Shown in pieces: positions 18,346 to 25,100 of a stretch of 29,406 bases of DNA. The stretch is taken from IMG/VR virus record IMGVR_UViG_3300023210_000156, positions 1 through 29,406 of that record; one strand, 5' to 3'. Below the pieces are notes generated by a model. That model saw only the letters and a program-made list of their open reading frames with translations. It ran no database searches and was not told the origin of the DNA. How positions within the stretch are numbered: the stretch's first letter is position 1; the number at the start of each line of letters is the position of its first letter. The position numbers were made by a program, and so were the translations under genes. This stretch comes from a virus.

Positions 18346-18795
18346 ATGATTTGGACTTATAAAGGAAAACCAGTACATGATGTAAAAAGTATGCCTAAAG
18401 ATACAATTGGATTTATATATAAAGTAATAAATCTTAAAACGGGTAAGTTTTACATAGGTAAAAAATCTGTAGCACATAAAAGAAAAACAAGAATAAGCAA
18501 AAGAGAAAAAACTAAGACTGGTACAAGAAAAACTTTTAAAATTGTGATTAAAGAATCAGATTGGAAAAGTTATACTGGATCCTGTAAAGAGCTAAATGAA
18601 GATATTAAAAAACAAGGTGAAAAGGCATTTGTCAAGTTCATAGTTGAGTATTGTTTTAGTAAAAAATATTTAAACTTTGCAGAATTATCATACCAAATAA
18701 AAGAAGATGTTCTTAAAGTAGAATCCTATAATGGCAACATATTAGGTAAATTTTACAGAAAAGACATGGAATTAAAAACTAAGAAAAATAAATAA
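18346..18795 (+). CDS. GIY-YIG-like endonuclease, tentative
   Basis: The segment GFIYKVINLKTGKFYIG near residues 27-43 matches the GIY-(about 10)-YIG module of this nuclease family, with Phe in place of Ile in the first motif. Later, DWKSYTGSCKELNEDIKKQG resembles the phage Seg-type variant in which W-x-x-Y-x-G-S follows. The catalytic Arg is expected in the basic segment around residues 48-65 (KRKTRISKREKTKTG), and a Glu near residue 122 (NFAELSYQIKE) is in the right place for the metal site. It could be a resolvase-like or homing nuclease. It lies one base after the primase gene. Confidence 0.65.
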   Translation: MIWTYKGKPVHDVKSMPKDTIGFIYKVINLKTGKFYIGKKSVAHKRKTRISKREKTKTGTRKTFKIVIKESDWKSYTGSCKELNEDIKKQGEKAFVKFIVEYCFSKKYLNFAELSYQIKEDVLKVESYNGNILGKFYRKDMELKTKKNK

Positions 18796-18799
18796 GAAA

Positions 18800-19240
18800 A
18801 TGAATGATTTAATAAAACAAGCCGTAGTATCGTCAGATAACTATACAGAACTTAAAACAATGATGATATCTAATGATGTCTTATCTGTAAATTTAGCTTT
18901 AACAATTTTAGAACAATCAGACTTTGAAAAATCTCAAATTTACATTTTATGCTTATTAAAAGAAACATCTAAAGAAGACTTTTTTAATAATAGTTCAAAA
19001 TTTAAAAAAGAATGCCCTTTGTTACATGAAAAAGTAACAGAGAAGCTGTTAGATCATGATACTAACATAGCAAGCTTATCTTTCAGAAAGATATATGAAA
19101 TTGCAGTAAGTAGAAAGAAAAAATTAGAATTATCATTTATGCTTAATGTATTTAAAAAAGAACTGATGTCTTTATTAGGAGATTATGGATTTACTTTTTT
19201 AGAATATATTGACATAGAACTTAAACCAAAGAAAATATGA
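18800..19240 (+). CDS. All-helical protein of unknown function (146 aa)
   Basis: I do not recognise it. The whole protein reads as alpha-helical repeats with regularly spaced Leu, Ile and Phe (LALTILEQSDFEKSQIYILC, FRKIYEIAVSRKKKLELSFM), which suggests a small helical-repeat scaffold. The C-terminal half of the tandem paralogues at 21792 and 22930 has a similar character (small acidic turn followed by a helix pair), so a shared partner is possible. It overlaps the metalloprotease/VWA gene by four bases and lies five bases after the nuclease-like gene. Confidence 0.65.
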   Translation: MNDLIKQAVVSSDNYTELKTMMISNDVLSVNLALTILEQSDFEKSQIYILCLLKETSKEDFFNNSSKFKKECPLLHEKVTEKLLDHDTNIASLSFRKIYEIAVSRKKKLELSFMLNVFKKELMSLLGDYGFTFLEYIDIELKPKKI

Positions 19241-20577
19241 CAAATCATGAAACTTTATCAAAAGCAACAAAACAGTTAATGCTAAAAGAGCCTTTTTACG
19301 GGCTCTTTCTTATTACACTAAACAAAGTATGGAGAAAAGATCTTGATACAGCAGGTGTAAGTAAAAACGGCATGAATGCTCAATTAGCTATTAATCCAAC
19401 ATTCTGGGAAAATTTATCTCAAGAATACAAGATTGGTATTTTAAAGCATGAAGTATTACATATAGCGTTTCAACACCTATTATTAAGAGATTCTTATAAA
19501 AATAAGAGACTTTTTAATATAGCAGCTGATTTAGAGATTAATCAATATATTGATAGATCTTATATGCCTGGTGGCAGTTATCCAGATAAAAAATCTTATA
19601 CAGATGATACTAAAATCTTTATAGATGAGATTAAAAGAAAACTTGACGCAGGAGAATATACTACTGAACAAGCAAGAGATGAATCTCTAAAGATACCAAT
19701 GAGAGCATTATTTCTTGAGGACTTTGAAGATGAGCATGGTAATTCATTACAAACCAGAATGGGAACTGACTATTACTATAAGACATTGGAAAAAACAATG
19801 GATCAAAATGGTAAAAGTACATGTGAAAGTCTTAATGAAGCTATGGGTAACGGTTGTGATGGAAACACTGCTGGACATCCAGGAGAAAATCATTGGGAAC
19901 ATTCTACTTGGAATGAATTTGACGGACTTAATGAAGCTGATAAGAAGTTAATCCAAAAACAGATTGACTATCAGTTAAAGGAAGTAAGTAATCAAGTAAG
20001 TAAAACTAGAGGAACACTACCTGGAGAGATTAAGAACTACATAGACATGCTTAACCAAGAAGAACCTGCCAAATTTGATTGGAAAGGGTACTTAAGAATG
20101 TTTACAGGAGGTTCTAGTAAAACTTATACTAAGAAGACCAGAAGAAAACCTAGTAGAAGGTTTATTGGATCACCAGGTCTTAGAATAAAACAAAAGAAAC
20201 ATATTCTTGTTGCGATTGATACCTCAGGGTCTGTAAGTAGTGATGAATTAGTGGAGTTTTTCCATGAAATACATCATATGCATAAAACAGGTGCTGATGT
20301 GACAGTGATTCAGTGTGATACTGCTATCAGTCATATAGGTAAATACAAGAAGCCAGAAGATGGTCAAATCAAAGTACACGGAAGAGGAGGTACTAGCTTT
20401 CAACCAGTGATAGATTATTATAATGAGCATTCAAGAGATTTCTCATGTATAGTATATTTCACAGATGGAGAAGCTCCTAATCCAGATCCTGTAGCAAAGG
20501 GAAGAATGCTATGGGTATTATCAGAATGTTCGTCTATGAATGACAGTCTTCCAGGATCAGTAATACAGTTAAACTAA
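19237..20577 (+). CDS. Metallopeptidase-like/VWA protein (DUF2201 type)
   Basis: An HExxH metal site (HEVLH, residues 71-75) is followed by a conserved IAADLEINQYI helix, as in the putative metallopeptidase domain of DUF2201. The C-terminal third is a von Willebrand A domain with an intact MIDAS start D328-T-S-G-S332 (VAIDTSGSVSSDEL), a GRGGTSFQPVI loop and a final YFTDGEAPNPDP. The middle has a disordered, GN-rich segment. Such proteins work with a MoxR-type AAA+ ATPase, which is encoded next. A hairpin with terminator-like form lies inside codons 17-24 (19285-19308). Role in the phage cycle is unknown; remodelling of a protein complex is likely. Confidence 0.85.
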   Translation: MTNHETLSKATKQLMLKEPFYGLFLITLNKVWRKDLDTAGVSKNGMNAQLAINPTFWENLSQEYKIGILKHEVLHIAFQHLLLRDSYKNKRLFNIAADLEINQYIDRSYMPGGSYPDKKSYTDDTKIFIDEIKRKLDAGEYTTEQARDESLKIPMRALFLEDFEDEHGNSLQTRMGTDYYYKTLEKTMDQNGKSTCESLNEAMGNGCDGNTAGHPGENHWEHSTWNEFDGLNEADKKLIQKQIDYQLKEVSNQVSKTRGTLPGEIKNYIDMLNQEEPAKFDWKGYLRMFTGGSSKTYTKKTRRKPSRRFIGSPGLRIKQKKHILVAIDTSGSVSSDELVEFFHEIHHMHKTGADVTVIQCDTAISHIGKYKKPEDGQIKVHGRGGTSFQPVIDYYNEHSRDFSCIVYFTDGEAPNPDPVAKGRMLWVLSECSSMNDSLPGSVIQLN

Positions 20578-20592
20578 ATTAATTTAAAAAAA

Positions 20593-21792
20593 ATGAGCAA
20601 CGCAGTAAGTTTAAACATTGATGAGTTAAAAGAATTTTTAAGCCACATCATAAAGACAAATAAACAATTACAAATAGACGGTAAAAACCCTATATCTACA
20701 GAGGTTGTAGGTGAATCAGGTATTGGGAAAACAAGTACAATGCTTCAATTAGCAAAAGAGGAGAATTTAAACTATGTAAAGTTAAATTTAGCTCAAATTG
20801 AAGAATTAGGTGATTTAGTTGGATATCCAATTAGACAATTTCAAATGGCTAAGAATATGGCTAAAGAAGGTGAAGTAGCTAAATGGTCAATGAAATGGGC
20901 AGATGAGCATTTACTTGAAGATTATAGAAATAAAGGTTATAAATCAACAGGTAAATCACAAATGGGATATTGTCCACCAGAATGGATAGCAGACAAAGCA
21001 GAAGGTGGCATATTATTATTAGATGATTGGAATAGAGCAGATGTAAGATTTATTCAAGCTGTGATGGAACTAGTTGATAGACAAGAATATATTTCTTGGA
21101 AGTTACCTAAGAACTGGCATATTATATTAACAGCAAATCCAGATAATGGTGATTACTTAGTACAATCAATAGATTCAGCACAAAAAACAAGATTTGTTAG
21201 TATTAATCTTAAGTTTGATGCTGAAGTATGGGCTAAATGGGCAGAATCTGAAGATATTGACAGCAGATGTATTAATTTCTTATTATTACATCCTGAGACA
21301 GTAACTCAAGAGACTAATGCAAGAAGTATTACTACTTTCTTTAATGCTATTTCTAGTTTAGATAGTTTTGAAGATGATTTGCCTTTAATCCAAATGATTG
21401 GAGAAGGATCAGTAGGAGAGGAGTTTTCAAATTTATTTACTTTATTTATTAATAATAAATTAGATAAGTTAGTACATCCTAAAGTAATGTTAACACATGC
21501 TTCAGATGACCATGTTGTTAAACTTCTTACAGAAGCAATCGGAATAGATAATAACTATAGAGCAGATATTGCTTCTGTATTATGTACCCGTTTTGCTAAT
21601 TATGCTCTACACCATGCTGAAAGCAACACAATCAATCAACCTATAATTGATAGAATTACTAAATTAACTACTGATGATGTATTTGGAAATGATCTTAAGT
21701 ATTATGCTGTAAGAGAAATTTTAAATGGTAATAAGCAAAAATTTCAAAAGCTTATGATGAATCCTGAAGTAGTAAAAATGGCAACTAAATAA
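20593..21792 (+). CDS. MoxR-type AAA+ ATPase
   Basis: It is the partner of the VWA protein. Walker A is VVGESGIGKTSTML near residue 39-52, Walker B is GGILLLDDWNRADVRF, and sensor 1 is WHIILTANPDNGDY, with the following SIDSAQKTRFVSI segment carrying the arginine of the next AAA+ motif. This order is typical of MoxR/CbbQ-type chaperone ATPases. The C-terminal 150 residues form a helical lid. At 399 aa it has the usual length. The leader TTAATTTAAAAAAA precedes the ATG. The last base overlaps the next gene, so the VWA, ATPase and paralogue genes form one unit. Confidence 0.88.
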   Translation: MSNAVSLNIDELKEFLSHIIKTNKQLQIDGKNPISTEVVGESGIGKTSTMLQLAKEENLNYVKLNLAQIEELGDLVGYPIRQFQMAKNMAKEGEVAKWSMKWADEHLLEDYRNKGYKSTGKSQMGYCPPEWIADKAEGGILLLDDWNRADVRFIQAVMELVDRQEYISWKLPKNWHIILTANPDNGDYLVQSIDSAQKTRFVSINLKFDAEVWAKWAESEDIDSRCINFLLLHPETVTQETNARSITTFFNAISSLDSFEDDLPLIQMIGEGSVGEEFSNLFTLFINNKLDKLVHPKVMLTHASDDHVVKLLTEAIGIDNNYRADIASVLCTRFANYALHHAESNTINQPIIDRITKLTTDDVFGNDLKYYAVREILNGNKQKFQKLMMNPEVVKMATK

Positions 21793-22946
21793 TGACATAT
21801 AAGCTTAAATCAGCTTCTATAACAGATATTACAAGGCTTCCTTTTCCTAAGGAGCCTTGTAATTATGTTTATAAAAAAGAAGGACACGGAAATTTATTAT
21901 TTACAGGATTAGTATATTCTGTAGATGGAGAAACTTATAGTAAAATAACAAATATATTTAAAGGTAGTGATAAACACACTATAGTTAAAGGAGATAAGGT
22001 ATACGTATTACCTGGTCATTCATTATCCAAATCAAGGATAAAAGAATATCTCAAATTAAATAATGCAACTCTTACTGATGACATTACTAAAGCTACAGCA
22101 ATTGCTGGACTTGATGAACCAGCTGAAGATGTAAATATGTATGGTACACCAAAGTTAAATAGTTTATTTTTTGAACTTTCTAAATCAGGTTCATTTTGGG
22201 TTAAAGATCTAGAAGTTGATTATCTTGATAATTATTTTACAGAGTTAACACTTGGATTAGACTTAACACTTAGGACTGTATCAACTAATGATGCTTATAG
22301 TAATTTAAAACAATATGATGCTAATGGTGGTATATTTACTTATTATGATAAAGAGTTCATTACAGGTAAAGCAATGGAAATAATGTATTATATTCTTACT
22401 AACAAAGTAAAAGTTCTTACTGAAGATTACATTGGTGCTAATGCAAATTCAACAGTTAAGCTTGAAGATGATGAAGTTTATGAAAGTATTTATGCAATGC
22501 TAGATAGTAGTGATAGAAATACTAATAACATGGGTATAGAACTTTTAATACATGCTGATCTTAGAGGTAAAACTTTATATAAGCTATTTAAAATAGCACA
22601 AGATCATGGTTGGGTAGTAAATAGACACACTAAAAGTAAAAGTGTTAAACATTTTTTAAACACAACTGATTGGAACACTCTAATGAATTTAGATGAAGAA
22701 GGATTACTTGATTATATGAAAAGTAATGATAAATTAGAGTTAAAAGCAATTAAAGAATTAATCCCTACTATATATAGTAGTAACTTATATAGACTTGAAC
22801 GTTCTAATAATGATGAATTCTTTACTATAAGTCCTAAATCTACTACTGAAAAAGTAACTATAGTTCTTAATGAAGAATGGAATAAATACTTAGAGATTGA
22901 AGAAGATGAATTTATAAAAATAAAAGAAGATGAATATCACAAATAA
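21792..22946 (+). CDS. Paralogue 1 with BRCT-like segment (384 aa)
   Basis: I do not recognise a named family. Residues 67-106 (GDKVYVLPGHSLSKSRIKEY, then a KATAIAG strand) align with residues 55-94 of the next protein and have the shape of a BRCT-like core: strand, G/P turn, helix, strand. Both also share a C-terminal helical part (YAMLDSSDRNTNNMGIELLI here). It starts one base after the ATPase stop and overlaps its paralogue by 17 nt. A hairpin of 12 bp lies inside codons 14-23 (21831-21860). Position suggests a partner of the VWA/ATPase pair. Confidence 0.7.
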   Translation: MTYKLKSASITDITRLPFPKEPCNYVYKKEGHGNLLFTGLVYSVDGETYSKITNIFKGSDKHTIVKGDKVYVLPGHSLSKSRIKEYLKLNNATLTDDITKATAIAGLDEPAEDVNMYGTPKLNSLFFELSKSGSFWVKDLEVDYLDNYFTELTLGLDLTLRTVSTNDAYSNLKQYDANGGIFTYYDKEFITGKAMEIMYYILTNKVKVLTEDYIGANANSTVKLEDDEVYESIYAMLDSSDRNTNNMGIELLIHADLRGKTLYKLFKIAQDHGWVVNRHTKSKSVKHFLNTTDWNTLMNLDEEGLLDYMKSNDKLELKAIKELIPTIYSSNLYRLERSNNDEFFTISPKSTTEKVTIVLNEEWNKYLEIEEDEFIKIKEDEYHK

Positions 22947-24045
22947 ATTTGATGACAACATAATTATAACAAATATACCTGTAAGAAATGTACTTGCTGA
23001 TAGTTTTACATGGAGTATTGATAAGTTATCTCATGACTGGGTATCTTTTAAAGAAAGTAGTATTTCTAAAATATATACACCTAATCCTAAAGATAAACTT
23101 TATTTTTATCCTGGATGTAACGTTCCTAGATTTAAAGTAAGAGAATGGGGTAAGAAAAATAAAATAACTGTAACTGTAACTGAAGATAAAGCAAATGCAA
23201 AATTTGCATCTTCTAAAAGTTTCTATAAATATGTATCAGATGAATACTATACTAAAGTAAGTTTACCTGCTTTTATAAAATTTATAGAAATCAATTATGA
23301 TAATCACTATACCAATTATGATGAGCTAATATCAACTCTTGACACTTATAATAAAGATTATATACTGTTAAAAAGTCACATATCTGGTGTACATGTAATG
23401 CTACACAATACTTATAACAATAGAGAGACCTTGTATGATAAAACTATAGAAGATTTAGATCCTAATTATACACAGTATATGCGTTATCAAAAAGTAAATA
23501 TGAATGATTGGGTTCATTTTTATAATTTATGTACAGATCCAAATGTCTACTCACAACAATCTATCATTGGTTTAATTAATGAAGATTCAACAATAATCAA
23601 CTCAGAACTATATGAAGAATTAAAAACTATGCTTCAAGCAGATGACAGAAAAAATATAGTAATGGCTATGGAAATAATGGCTAGTTCTAATCTTAATCTT
23701 TCATGTCATTATGTAATGTTGCTACTAAGGGAATGTGGTGAAATTATGTACAGTTATAAAGAAAAAAATCATGTTAACTTTAAAAGCATGATAGAATTCT
23801 TAAACATCAAAAACCATTGGACTAATATTACAGAAGATATTATGATTCAAACTTTAATGGATAAAGAAGTTTTAACTATGGAGACTCTTACTGAAACATG
23901 TGAAGCTGTAAAAGCTGTAATGGAAAGAGAATCAAATACTAAACATTTTATTATAAGTAAAATAACAGTATCTGATGAAGTTAAAAACTATTTTAAAGAA
24001 CAAGCAATTCAACAAACAACTCAATTAGAAACTCAAGACTCTTAA
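22930..24045 (+). CDS. Paralogue 2 with BRCT-like segment (371 aa)
   Basis: This gene encodes a second copy of the same architecture as the preceding gene. The N-terminal segment DKLYFYPGCNVPRFKVREWG followed by EDKANAKFASSKSFYKY matches the paralogue, and the LQADDRKNIVMAMEIMASSN segment matches its C-terminal helical part. Overall identity is low, so the duplication is old. Like its partner it has no catalytic motif. BRCT-type domains bind phosphopeptides or DNA ends, so a bridging role in replication or repair is conceivable. The 17-nt overlap with the preceding gene supports stoichiometric expression. Confidence 0.7.
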   Translation: MNITNKFDDNIIITNIPVRNVLADSFTWSIDKLSHDWVSFKESSISKIYTPNPKDKLYFYPGCNVPRFKVREWGKKNKITVTVTEDKANAKFASSKSFYKYVSDEYYTKVSLPAFIKFIEINYDNHYTNYDELISTLDTYNKDYILLKSHISGVHVMLHNTYNNRETLYDKTIEDLDPNYTQYMRYQKVNMNDWVHFYNLCTDPNVYSQQSIIGLINEDSTIINSELYEELKTMLQADDRKNIVMAMEIMASSNLNLSCHYVMLLLRECGEIMYSYKEKNHVNFKSMIEFLNIKNHWTNITEDIMIQTLMDKEVLTMETLTETCEAVKAVMERESNTKHFIISKITVSDEVKNYFKEQAIQQTTQLETQDS

Positions 24046-24056
24046 AAAAATAAAAA

Positions 24057-25100
24057 ATGATAGATACAAAAACAATAAACACAAGTAGTCCTATAGAAAA
24101 GTTTTATGAAGATTACTTTTGCTTTAGTTATTCTAGCTTAAACAAACTAATCCACTCTGCTCAAGCTTTTTATAACTGGTACATTTTAAAAGAAAAAGAG
24201 GATTCTTTAGCAACTTATTTAATAGATGGGAAAGTAATTCACTGTTTAATTTTAGATAAAAAAATGTTTGATGACCAATTTTCAGTAATGCCAAGTGATG
24301 TACCTGGCGTTAGTAACAAAAAGGTAATTGAATTTATTTACAGGTTATGGCAAGAAACAAATGATCCATTAAAAGATCTTCATGATTATGAAGATGAAGT
24401 ACTTCAATGGCTTAAAAATAATGACTTACATCAAAAATTAAAAGATGATAAAGATTTAAAAAAAGTTGATGCTTTAACAGGAGACACTAAACGCTTAAAT
24501 AAAGTGTTTACTTCTAAAAGTATTAACTACTTTTCATATCTTAAACAATCAGAAAACAAAGATGTTATAGATCAAACAACTCTTGATAGATGTGAAGAAG
24601 CAGTAAATGCTTTGAAAACTAACAGAAAAGTTAGAGAACTTCTTAGAATGGGTGAAGAAACTTTTGAGTTAACTGAAGTACATAATGAAAAACCTCTTGC
24701 AGCTCAATTGCAAGAGTATCCGTTTGGGATAAAAGGTATAGTTGATAATTATATAATAGATCATGCTACTAAGAAAGTCTATATTAATGACTTGAAAACT
24801 ACAGGTAAAACCCTGAAAGAGTTTAAAGATAGTGTTGATTATTATAAATACTGGATGCAAGCTGCTATATATATGAGAATGGTTAAAGCTAACCATACTG
24901 ATACAGCTGATTACGAGTATGTCTTTCACTTTATTGTGATAGATAAATATAACCAAGTATACTCTTTTCCCGTTAGTGTTGAATCAATGCTTGACTGGCA
25001 ATCTCAACTAGATGGCATATTAAAAATAGCTAATTATCACTATACTAAGAAAGATTATACACTACCATATGAGTTCGCTTTGGGTCAAGTAACTTTATAG
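24057..25100 (+). CDS. PD-(D/E)XK nuclease (RecB/Cas4-like)
   Basis: The catalytic core is visible: GIKGIVDNYIID with D230, then VYINDLKTTGKTL with D245-L-K247, the D...DxK signature of RecB-type nucleases. A QAAIYMRMV segment follows, equivalent to motif Q/Y of that family. The first 200 residues are helical and contain SYSSLNKLIHSAQAFYNWYI, the usual helical substrate domain. No iron-sulfur cysteine cluster is present, so it differs from Cas4. In tailed phages such proteins act as exonucleases in recombination or genome processing. It lies 11 bases after paralogue 2 and 12 bases before an unknown gene. Confidence 0.85.
   Translation: MIDTKTINTSSPIEKFYEDYFCFSYSSLNKLIHSAQAFYNWYILKEKEDSLATYLIDGKVIHCLILDKKMFDDQFSVMPSDVPGVSNKKVIEFIYRLWQETNDPLKDLHDYEDEVLQWLKNNDLHQKLKDDKDLKKVDALTGDTKRLNKVFTSKSINYFSYLKQSENKDVIDQTTLDRCEEAVNALKTNRKVRELLRMGEETFELTEVHNEKPLAAQLQEYPFGIKGIVDNYIIDHATKKVYINDLKTTGKTLKEFKDSVDYYKYWMQAAIYMRMVKANHTDTADYEYVFHFIVIDKYNQVYSFPVSVESMLDWQSQLDGILKIANYHYTKKDYTLPYEFALGQVTL

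Follow-up and report, generated by a model that had tools for sequence, protein, structure and literature searches.

Motors that combine an AAA+ ring with a VWA domain have been described in several biological contexts. Midasin forms a ring in eukaryotes and uses its metal ion-dependent adhesion site (MIDAS) to pull on ribosome-assembly factors. In NorQ-NorD, a VWA finger enters the AAA+ pore, ATP hydrolysis twists a linker, and the MIDAS presumably binds the final target via a sixth ligand; midasin shares with it the MIDAS and the VWA finger in the AAA+ pore (PMC13036017). NorQ-NorD, RavA-ViaA, and midasin (Rea1) all remodel cellular protein complexes, namely, NO reductase, respiratory complexes, and pre-60S particles. 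In multicellular bacteria, a MoxR and vWA core is joined by a third conserved component in ternary systems (MoxR-vWA-VMAP, iSTAND, FtsH, and beta-propeller systems), the effector-associated domains (EADs) of which were proposed to bridge components and which are predicted conflict systems (Kaur et al. 2020, PMC7159879). Among phages, a MoxR-type AAA+ ATPase encoded beside a vWA protein whose N-terminal domain is a metallopeptidase has already been described in group 2.2 jumbo phages (Iyer et al. 2021, PMC7824862). N4-like phages encode an ATPase beside a DUF2201-type protein (annotated as N4 gp24-like and gp25-like, with the RefSeq name HNH endonuclease), and in some members of this group, homologs of N4 gp24/gp25 are located close to a second structural module (PMC4193335). 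Here we analyzed a 29,406-base IMG/VR virus record (IMGVR_UViG_3300023210_000156; the window), in the replication block of which a metallopeptidase-VWA protein and a MoxR-type ATPase are encoded together with two paralogous proteins of predicted BRCT-like and ARM/HEAT-like architecture, the candidate adaptors, and with a stand-alone copy of their helical domain.

The comparison of this locus with the known systems can be summarized as follows. (i) The AAA+ ring and VWA/MIDAS domain are shared with NorQ-NorD, RavA-ViaA, and midasin, to which a peptidase domain and BRCT-ARM partners are added here. (ii) The ternary systems of multicellular bacteria have in common with the locus the MoxR and vWA core, the third conserved component, and an adaptor domain copied on separate proteins, comparable to the EADs; they differ in that here the third component is BRCT-like plus ARM-like, the vWA protein has no fused effector domains, and the genes are phage borne. 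Among 15 adaptors, no Pfam match to VMAP (including VMAP-C) or EAD was obtained at an E value of ≤1, although the presence of these models in the library is unconfirmed and a distant relation is possible. (iii) The jumbo phage pair has the same two-gene architecture, whereas here it is found in crAss-like contigs of ~100 to 120 kb, within the replication block, and with constant BRCT-ARM partners that are unmentioned there. No adaptor homolog was found in PA5oct, AR9, Moorella MTATph1, AD45, pVa5, and Pollock, and the genes downstream of the VWA-MoxR pair in the Moorella phage, AR9, and AD45 have no detectable adaptor homology. (iv) The N4 gp24/gp25 pair belongs to a separate phage group, and no BRCT-like partner was found for it. 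Searches of the literature, with subscription papers outside their scope, yielded no article joining crAss-like phages and MoxR, or BRCT, bacteriophage, and MoxR. The arrangement appears to be new in its constant third component, which is BRCT-like plus ARM-like in architecture, in the stand-alone copy, and in its breadth among uncultured crAss-like phages. The genes and motifs concerned are the following.

18800..19240, + strand: 146-amino-acid (aa) stand-alone copy of the C-terminal helical domain of the paralogs (profile-profile match), with a 4-nt overlap with the VWA start
19237..20577, + strand: 446-aa metallopeptidase-VWA protein (DUF2201_N plus DUF2201; Pfam, phrog_1314)
19447..19461, + strand: zincin motif HEVLH, VWA protein residues 71-75 (H71, E72, and H75 invariant)
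20218..20232, + strand: MIDAS motif DTSGS, residues 328-332 in the VWA domain (columns invariant)
20392-20394 and 20464-20466, + strand: further MIDAS residues T386 and D410, respectively (columns invariant)
20593..21792, + strand: 399-aa MoxR-type AAA+ ATPase (phrog_1297)
20710..20733, + strand: Walker A motif GESGIGKT, MoxR residues 40-47 (G40, G43, G45, K46, and T47 invariant)
21022-21027, + strand: Walker B residues DD144-145 of MoxR (D144 and D145 invariant)
21792..22946, + strand: paralog A, 384 aa, a derived copy present only in the clade of the window
21981..22448, + strand: BRCT-like domain of paralog A, residues 64-219 (sub-threshold PF00533 match, VIA-align)
22930..24045, + strand: paralog B, 371 aa, which retains the family consensus and adjoins the exonuclease gene
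23077..23586, + strand: BRCT-like domain of paralog B, residues 50-219 including an insertion (VIA-align, structure model)
23587..23931, + strand: ARM/HEAT-like helical domain of paralog B, residues 220-334, with motifs MAMEIMA and HVNFKS (model, VIA-align)
24057..25100, + strand: PD-(D/E)XK (exonuclease VIII-like) gene (phrog_412, 2.5e-19), the constant downstream neighbor, not counted in the machine

Relatives were retrieved in two scans. The scan with the VWA protein provided 29 viral loci, and from the scan with the paralog alignment we used the best 80 of 322 confirmed candidate stretches, one of which is also in the VWA set; paired counts refer to these two scans, respectively. Profile annotation of all open reading frames (ORFs) revealed the shared order primase, (GIY-YIG gene), stand-alone helical domain, VWA, MoxR, paralog(s), exonuclease, 193-aa gene, 144-aa gene, and polymerase. 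The segment from VWA over MoxR and paralog to exonuclease was nearly invariant in ~100 related environmental crAss-like contigs, so that the arrangement is not due to chance. VWA adjoins MoxR in every contig with both (29/29 and 72/72), MoxR is directly upstream of a paralog, or of a helical-domain gene followed by a paralog, in 19/19 and 74/77, and the paralog directly precedes the exonuclease in 19/19 and 77/77 (96/96 with both). A previous sequence-only reading had proposed that VWA, MoxR, and the two paralogs form one unit, with spacings of +15, -1, and -17 nt, and had named gene order in relatives as the check. We confirmed its four ORFs, their coordinates, and their spacings, and the order was found to be conserved. 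The four genes are thus kept together, but a fifth component, the gene at 18800-19240, had been overlooked. Likewise, the proposed coupling to an uncharacterized BRCT-like family holds, but the duplication is not general: two full-length paralogs occur only in the clade of the window (the window, L002, L005, L032, L034, and L035/L037), and most relatives have one. The three exceptions to the MoxR-paralog adjacency (L034, L035, and L037) have a 147-aa RuvC-like ORF in place of VWA-MoxR, between primase and paralogs (6147-6590 in L034, 6225-6668 in L035 and L037). In the L037 contig, the 146-aa homolog, VWA, and MoxR are ~7 kb upstream of the paralog pair, with all parts retained, whereas MoxR is cut by the contig edge in L035 and neither VWA nor MoxR is visible in the L034 fragment. 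The linkage is hence breakable, but the one contig of sufficient length retains the whole set.

The catalytic motifs of both motor proteins are intact. The VWA protein matches DUF2201_N (PF13203; 1.1e-21, 78.1 bits against a Pfam gathering cutoff of 23.2), the DUF2201 VWA domain (PF09967; 3.2e-16, 60 bits against 26.4), and phrog_1314 (9.5e-64). Both HExxH and DxSxS are present in 69/69 distinct homologs, and the complete MIDAS (DxSxS...T...D) and the HExxH zincin motif are invariant in the alignment. The ATPase was assigned to the MoxR type by phrog_1297 (1.2e-33), with AAA_5 and AAA_3 scores of 21.1 bits (cutoff, 22) and 16.5 bits (cutoff, 27). The remodeling pair named in the sequence-only reading is supported. 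Walker A is found in 64/65 and Walker B in 65/65 MoxR homologs, and the MoxR profile matches the AAA modules of midasin. In L069 (2593-4953), VWA and MoxR are read as a single 786-aa ORF, which is either a true fusion or a sequencing/frameshift artifact. Several MoxR homologs (L008, 8131-9717; L006, 8201-9481; L028, 8209-9552; and L077, 515 aa) are extended by a long insertion between the two Walker motifs, at around residue 95; in L008, it is rich in charged residues.

Paralogs A and B are only ~16 to 18% identical overall, yet they align over their full length within one family. Scans of both against Pfam, PHROG, and NCBIfam provided nothing usable. The sole PF00533 match in the window was at residues 66-110 of paralog A (21987-22121; E value of 0.0037, 12.7 bits), below the cutoff of 21.3 bits, and we therefore term the domain BRCT-like rather than file it as BRCT. 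AlphaFold2 models of paralog A (66 sequences; predicted local distance difference test [pLDDT] score of 76.7) and paralog B (12 sequences; pLDDT of 76.4, ~83 to 95 across the core) both predict a helical domain preceded by an N-terminal alpha/beta domain, which is confident outside a variable insertion; in paralog A, the poorly conserved insertion is between the third strand and the second helix. Foldseek candidates were realigned with VIA-align, in which Z scores of 5 to 6 are middling and below the confident range. The top row for paralog B was the PARP1 BRCT domain 7scy (Z score of 6.1, root mean square deviation [RMSD] of 3.1, 77/96 residues), to which paralog A was also aligned (Z score of 5.7, RMSD of 2.5, 75/96 residues), along with BRCT domains of XRCC1, REV1, RFC1, PARP4, and TopBP1. 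With Foldseek against the PDB, no E value was below 0.1 for either model, and profile searches of PDB sequences with the paralogs gave no BRCT match. The helical domain, which had escaped the sequence-only reading, is predicted to resemble ARM/HEAT repeats such as those of importin-alpha and beta-catenin, a common arrangement that implies no specific function. In the adaptors, two positions where BRCT helix 1 begins are occupied by K or R in 66/66, 65/66 share a glutamate, and most retain an HxNF motif, the N and F columns of which are conserved; several of these motifs have been lost from the A copies, indicating that A is the derived copy. Searches of annotated phages by tblastn with paralog B and a divergent homolog gave no match, and the single-protein search of viral contigs with paralog A found none, whereas the alignment-based search succeeded. 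A scan of bacterial genomes, limited to one peptide pattern, revealed no relative. The only clear structural neighbors in BFVD include a protein named from a crAss-like virus.

The family of the 146-aa protein aligned with the paralog family over 127 columns (probability of 98.1, E value of 1.4e-13, profile-profile). Since this gene is homologous to the C-terminal domain of both paralogs, the unit has five members. A homolog is directly upstream of VWA in 72 of the examined loci, and some relatives have a stand-alone helical-domain gene and one paralog. In L009 (1739-4645), two more helical-domain-like ORFs (218 and 265 aa) are located upstream of VWA, so that the domain has been multiplied in some lineages.

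The members of the unit differ in their rate of change. For the 21 lineages with a complete set, obtained by holding polymerase identity under 90%, the median pairwise identities were 58.0% for polymerase, 57.3% for MoxR, 52.6% for VWA, 47.5% for primase, and 42.9% for exonuclease, compared with 25.8% for the exonuclease-adjacent adaptor and 23.3% for the stand-alone domain. VWA and MoxR are thus conserved like the DNA polymerase, and the adaptors are ~31 identity points below. Within the adaptor, identity was 39.1% in the first BRCT core, 34.5% in the helical domain, and 15.6% in the insertion. The simplest description of these data is a conserved motor with quickly changing recognition parts.

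The window can be assigned to a crAss-like phage. Its replication block has the order DnaB, Sak4-like ATPase, DnaG primase, and PD-(D/E)XK exonuclease that serves to recognize Crassvirales, and the more complete order (DnaB, 179-aa gene, Sak4-like ATPase, 245-aa gene, primase, cassette, and exonuclease) is that of the Crassvirales phage cr1_1. An exonuclease search in annotated phages finds Crassvirales records, and the best record for the polymerase is the Crassvirales member Cellulophaga phage phi14:2. The 99-kb contig of the nearest relative has structural genes on the opposite strand and very long ORFs, as in crAss-like genomes; its PHROG matches to the terminase large subunit (TerL), portal, and major capsid protein (MCP) are not proven to be crAss specific, and single-protein searches of the large relatives with cr1_1 structural proteins, which are too diverged, were negative or marginal. 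The location between primase and nuclease genes in the replication block, as initially proposed, is supported. Six named Crassvirales genomes contained no VWA and no detectable adaptor. In their primase-exonuclease interval, three of them have JAB and ThiF (ubiquitin-like) genes and others ATP-grasp/amidoligase genes; such cassettes in Crassvirales are located at L135, 3101-6331; L152, 2663-6341; L153, 2600-6214; L136, 588-7644; and L137, 22025-24048. In a small sample, ThiF and VWA did not co-occur, which suggests that the interval hosts alternative protein-modifying cassettes. An identification of the MoxR gene with the crAss ATP_43b of Yutin et al. 2021 was dropped without proof, as the Sak4-like ATPase between DnaB and primase fits better.

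We propose, with a probability of roughly one half, that the five genes encode a phage ternary MoxR-VWA remodeling system in which the BRCT-ARM proteins are adaptors or dedicated substrates and which is aimed at a nucleoprotein or phosphoprotein target present at the time of replication. By analogy with NorQ-NorD and midasin, the MoxR ring, a predicted hexamer, would pair with the VWA cochaperone bearing the N-terminal zinc metallopeptidase and remodel a complex recruited by the BRCT-ARM proteins. The latter, together with the stand-alone helical copy, would direct the motor to a target that is produced while the phage DNA is replicated, possibly through binding of DNA or phosphate by the BRCT-like domain. 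An acidic residue of the adaptor or target would be gripped by the MIDAS and then twisted or pulled upon ATP hydrolysis, with possible cleavage of the gripped protein by the metallopeptidase. In a more specific version, which we regard as doubtful, the adaptors recognize DNA ends or phosphorylated proteins, so that the AAA+ motor acts on replicating phage DNA in a midasin-like manner, actively stripping or maturing nucleoprotein complexes there, an activity undescribed in phage.

A number of observations weigh against this proposal. (i) Gene packing is equally tight across the whole block, from primase through the 193-aa gene, so that spacing alone cannot delimit a unit. (ii) Phage lineages can retain a conserved gene order even if the gene products do not interact physically. 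(iii) The retrieval queries were the genes themselves, many of the contigs are close relatives, and a few were in both scans. (iv) The N-terminal domain is BRCT-like at a sub-threshold level by sequence and with a Z score of ~6 by structure, and PF00533 had no match in the contigs of eight relatives. (v) The presence of unrelated cassettes at the same interval makes the location weaker evidence for a replication or replisome target. If the proposal is correct, a core phage locus would follow the logic of MoxR-VWA plus a third protein, so far described for bacterial conflict systems. Few known phages are as abundant as the crAss-like ones, yet much of their replication block is unannotated; for one widespread uncharacterized family, a possible fold, a partner machine, and a set of five genes are now proposed, and a BRCT-like domain is offered in phage proteins other than DNA ligase.

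Of the competing explanations, the one that survives best, although we consider it somewhat unlikely, is that of a host-takeover or counter-defense module, in which motor and peptidase dismantle or inactivate host protein assemblies, the BRCT-ARM proteins are recognition parts diversified in an arms race, and the location is an exchangeable cargo slot. The low identity of the adaptors and the stand-alone domain, the lineage-specific duplication, the alternative JAB-ThiF and ATP-grasp/amidoligase cassettes, and the predicted conflict role of cellular ternary systems are all consistent with it. However, position and order are nearly fixed in ~100 contigs, unlike those of patchy counter-defense genes, conservation of the motor genes matches that of the polymerase, and PADLOC gave only weak ATPase matches. 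It is unlikely that the resemblance to BRCT is superficial, such that the N-terminal part adopts a different three-layer alpha/beta fold and the proteins serve as generic scaffolds. The sub-threshold PF00533 match in one protein only, the Foldseek E values above 0.1, the middling Z scores, and the need to skip an insertion of ~85 residues to obtain the fold argue for such a resemblance, but two paralogs less than 20% identical independently yield BRCT domains as leading alpha/beta matches over ~75/96 residues, and the weak PF00533 match is at the same place as the structural one. A chaperone-peptidase for virion assembly or maturation, as proposed for the same pair architecture in group 2.2 jumbo phages (PMC7824862) and for a tail-assembly ATPase system in an archaeal virus, would agree with the position of N4 gp24/gp25 homologs; it is quite unlikely for the present unit, which is in the replication block on the strand opposite to the structural genes and has BRCT-like partners that suggest DNA or phosphoprotein work. 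Finally, that these are merely neighboring replication genes held together by the gene order of the lineage, as the synteny of the whole helicase-to-polymerase block would permit, is very unlikely given the separated but co-retained parts in L037, the single VWA-MoxR ORF in L069, the domain that the gene preceding VWA shares with those following MoxR, and the generally known VWA-MoxR partnership.

Additional observations concern mobile elements. Inserts of 0.3 to 1.1 kb are present in L002 (8180-9105), L050, L058, L063, L092, L095, L047, L039, L042, L056, and L071. They split the VWA gene at HExxH, at the MIDAS threonine, or near residue 98 and the MoxR gene beside Walker B or near residue 74. 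According to its motifs, the insert ORF of L002 is homing-endonuclease-like, of the LAGLIDADG type. Self-splicing elements usually occupy conserved sites of essential genes, and the inserts at catalytic motifs of VWA and MoxR have the placement typical for such genes. An Rfam intron search of the scanned loci gave no match; introns in core genes of some crAss-like phages were reported by Yutin et al. Between primase and unit, the window contains a SegE-type GIY-YIG gene (18346-18795; PF19835, 2.7e-27), a homolog of which is at the same place in most relatives; this is unusual for a mobile homing endonuclease, and the gene may have turned into a resident one. DUF2201 metallopeptidase-VWA proteins are widely labeled "HNH endonuclease," and a PHROG matched by GIY-YIG proteins bears the name "NAD synthetase"; both labels are apparent propagated misannotations (phrog_1314, phrog_447, and RefSeq phage records such as NC_021532.1 gp051 and NC_049379.1 gp050).

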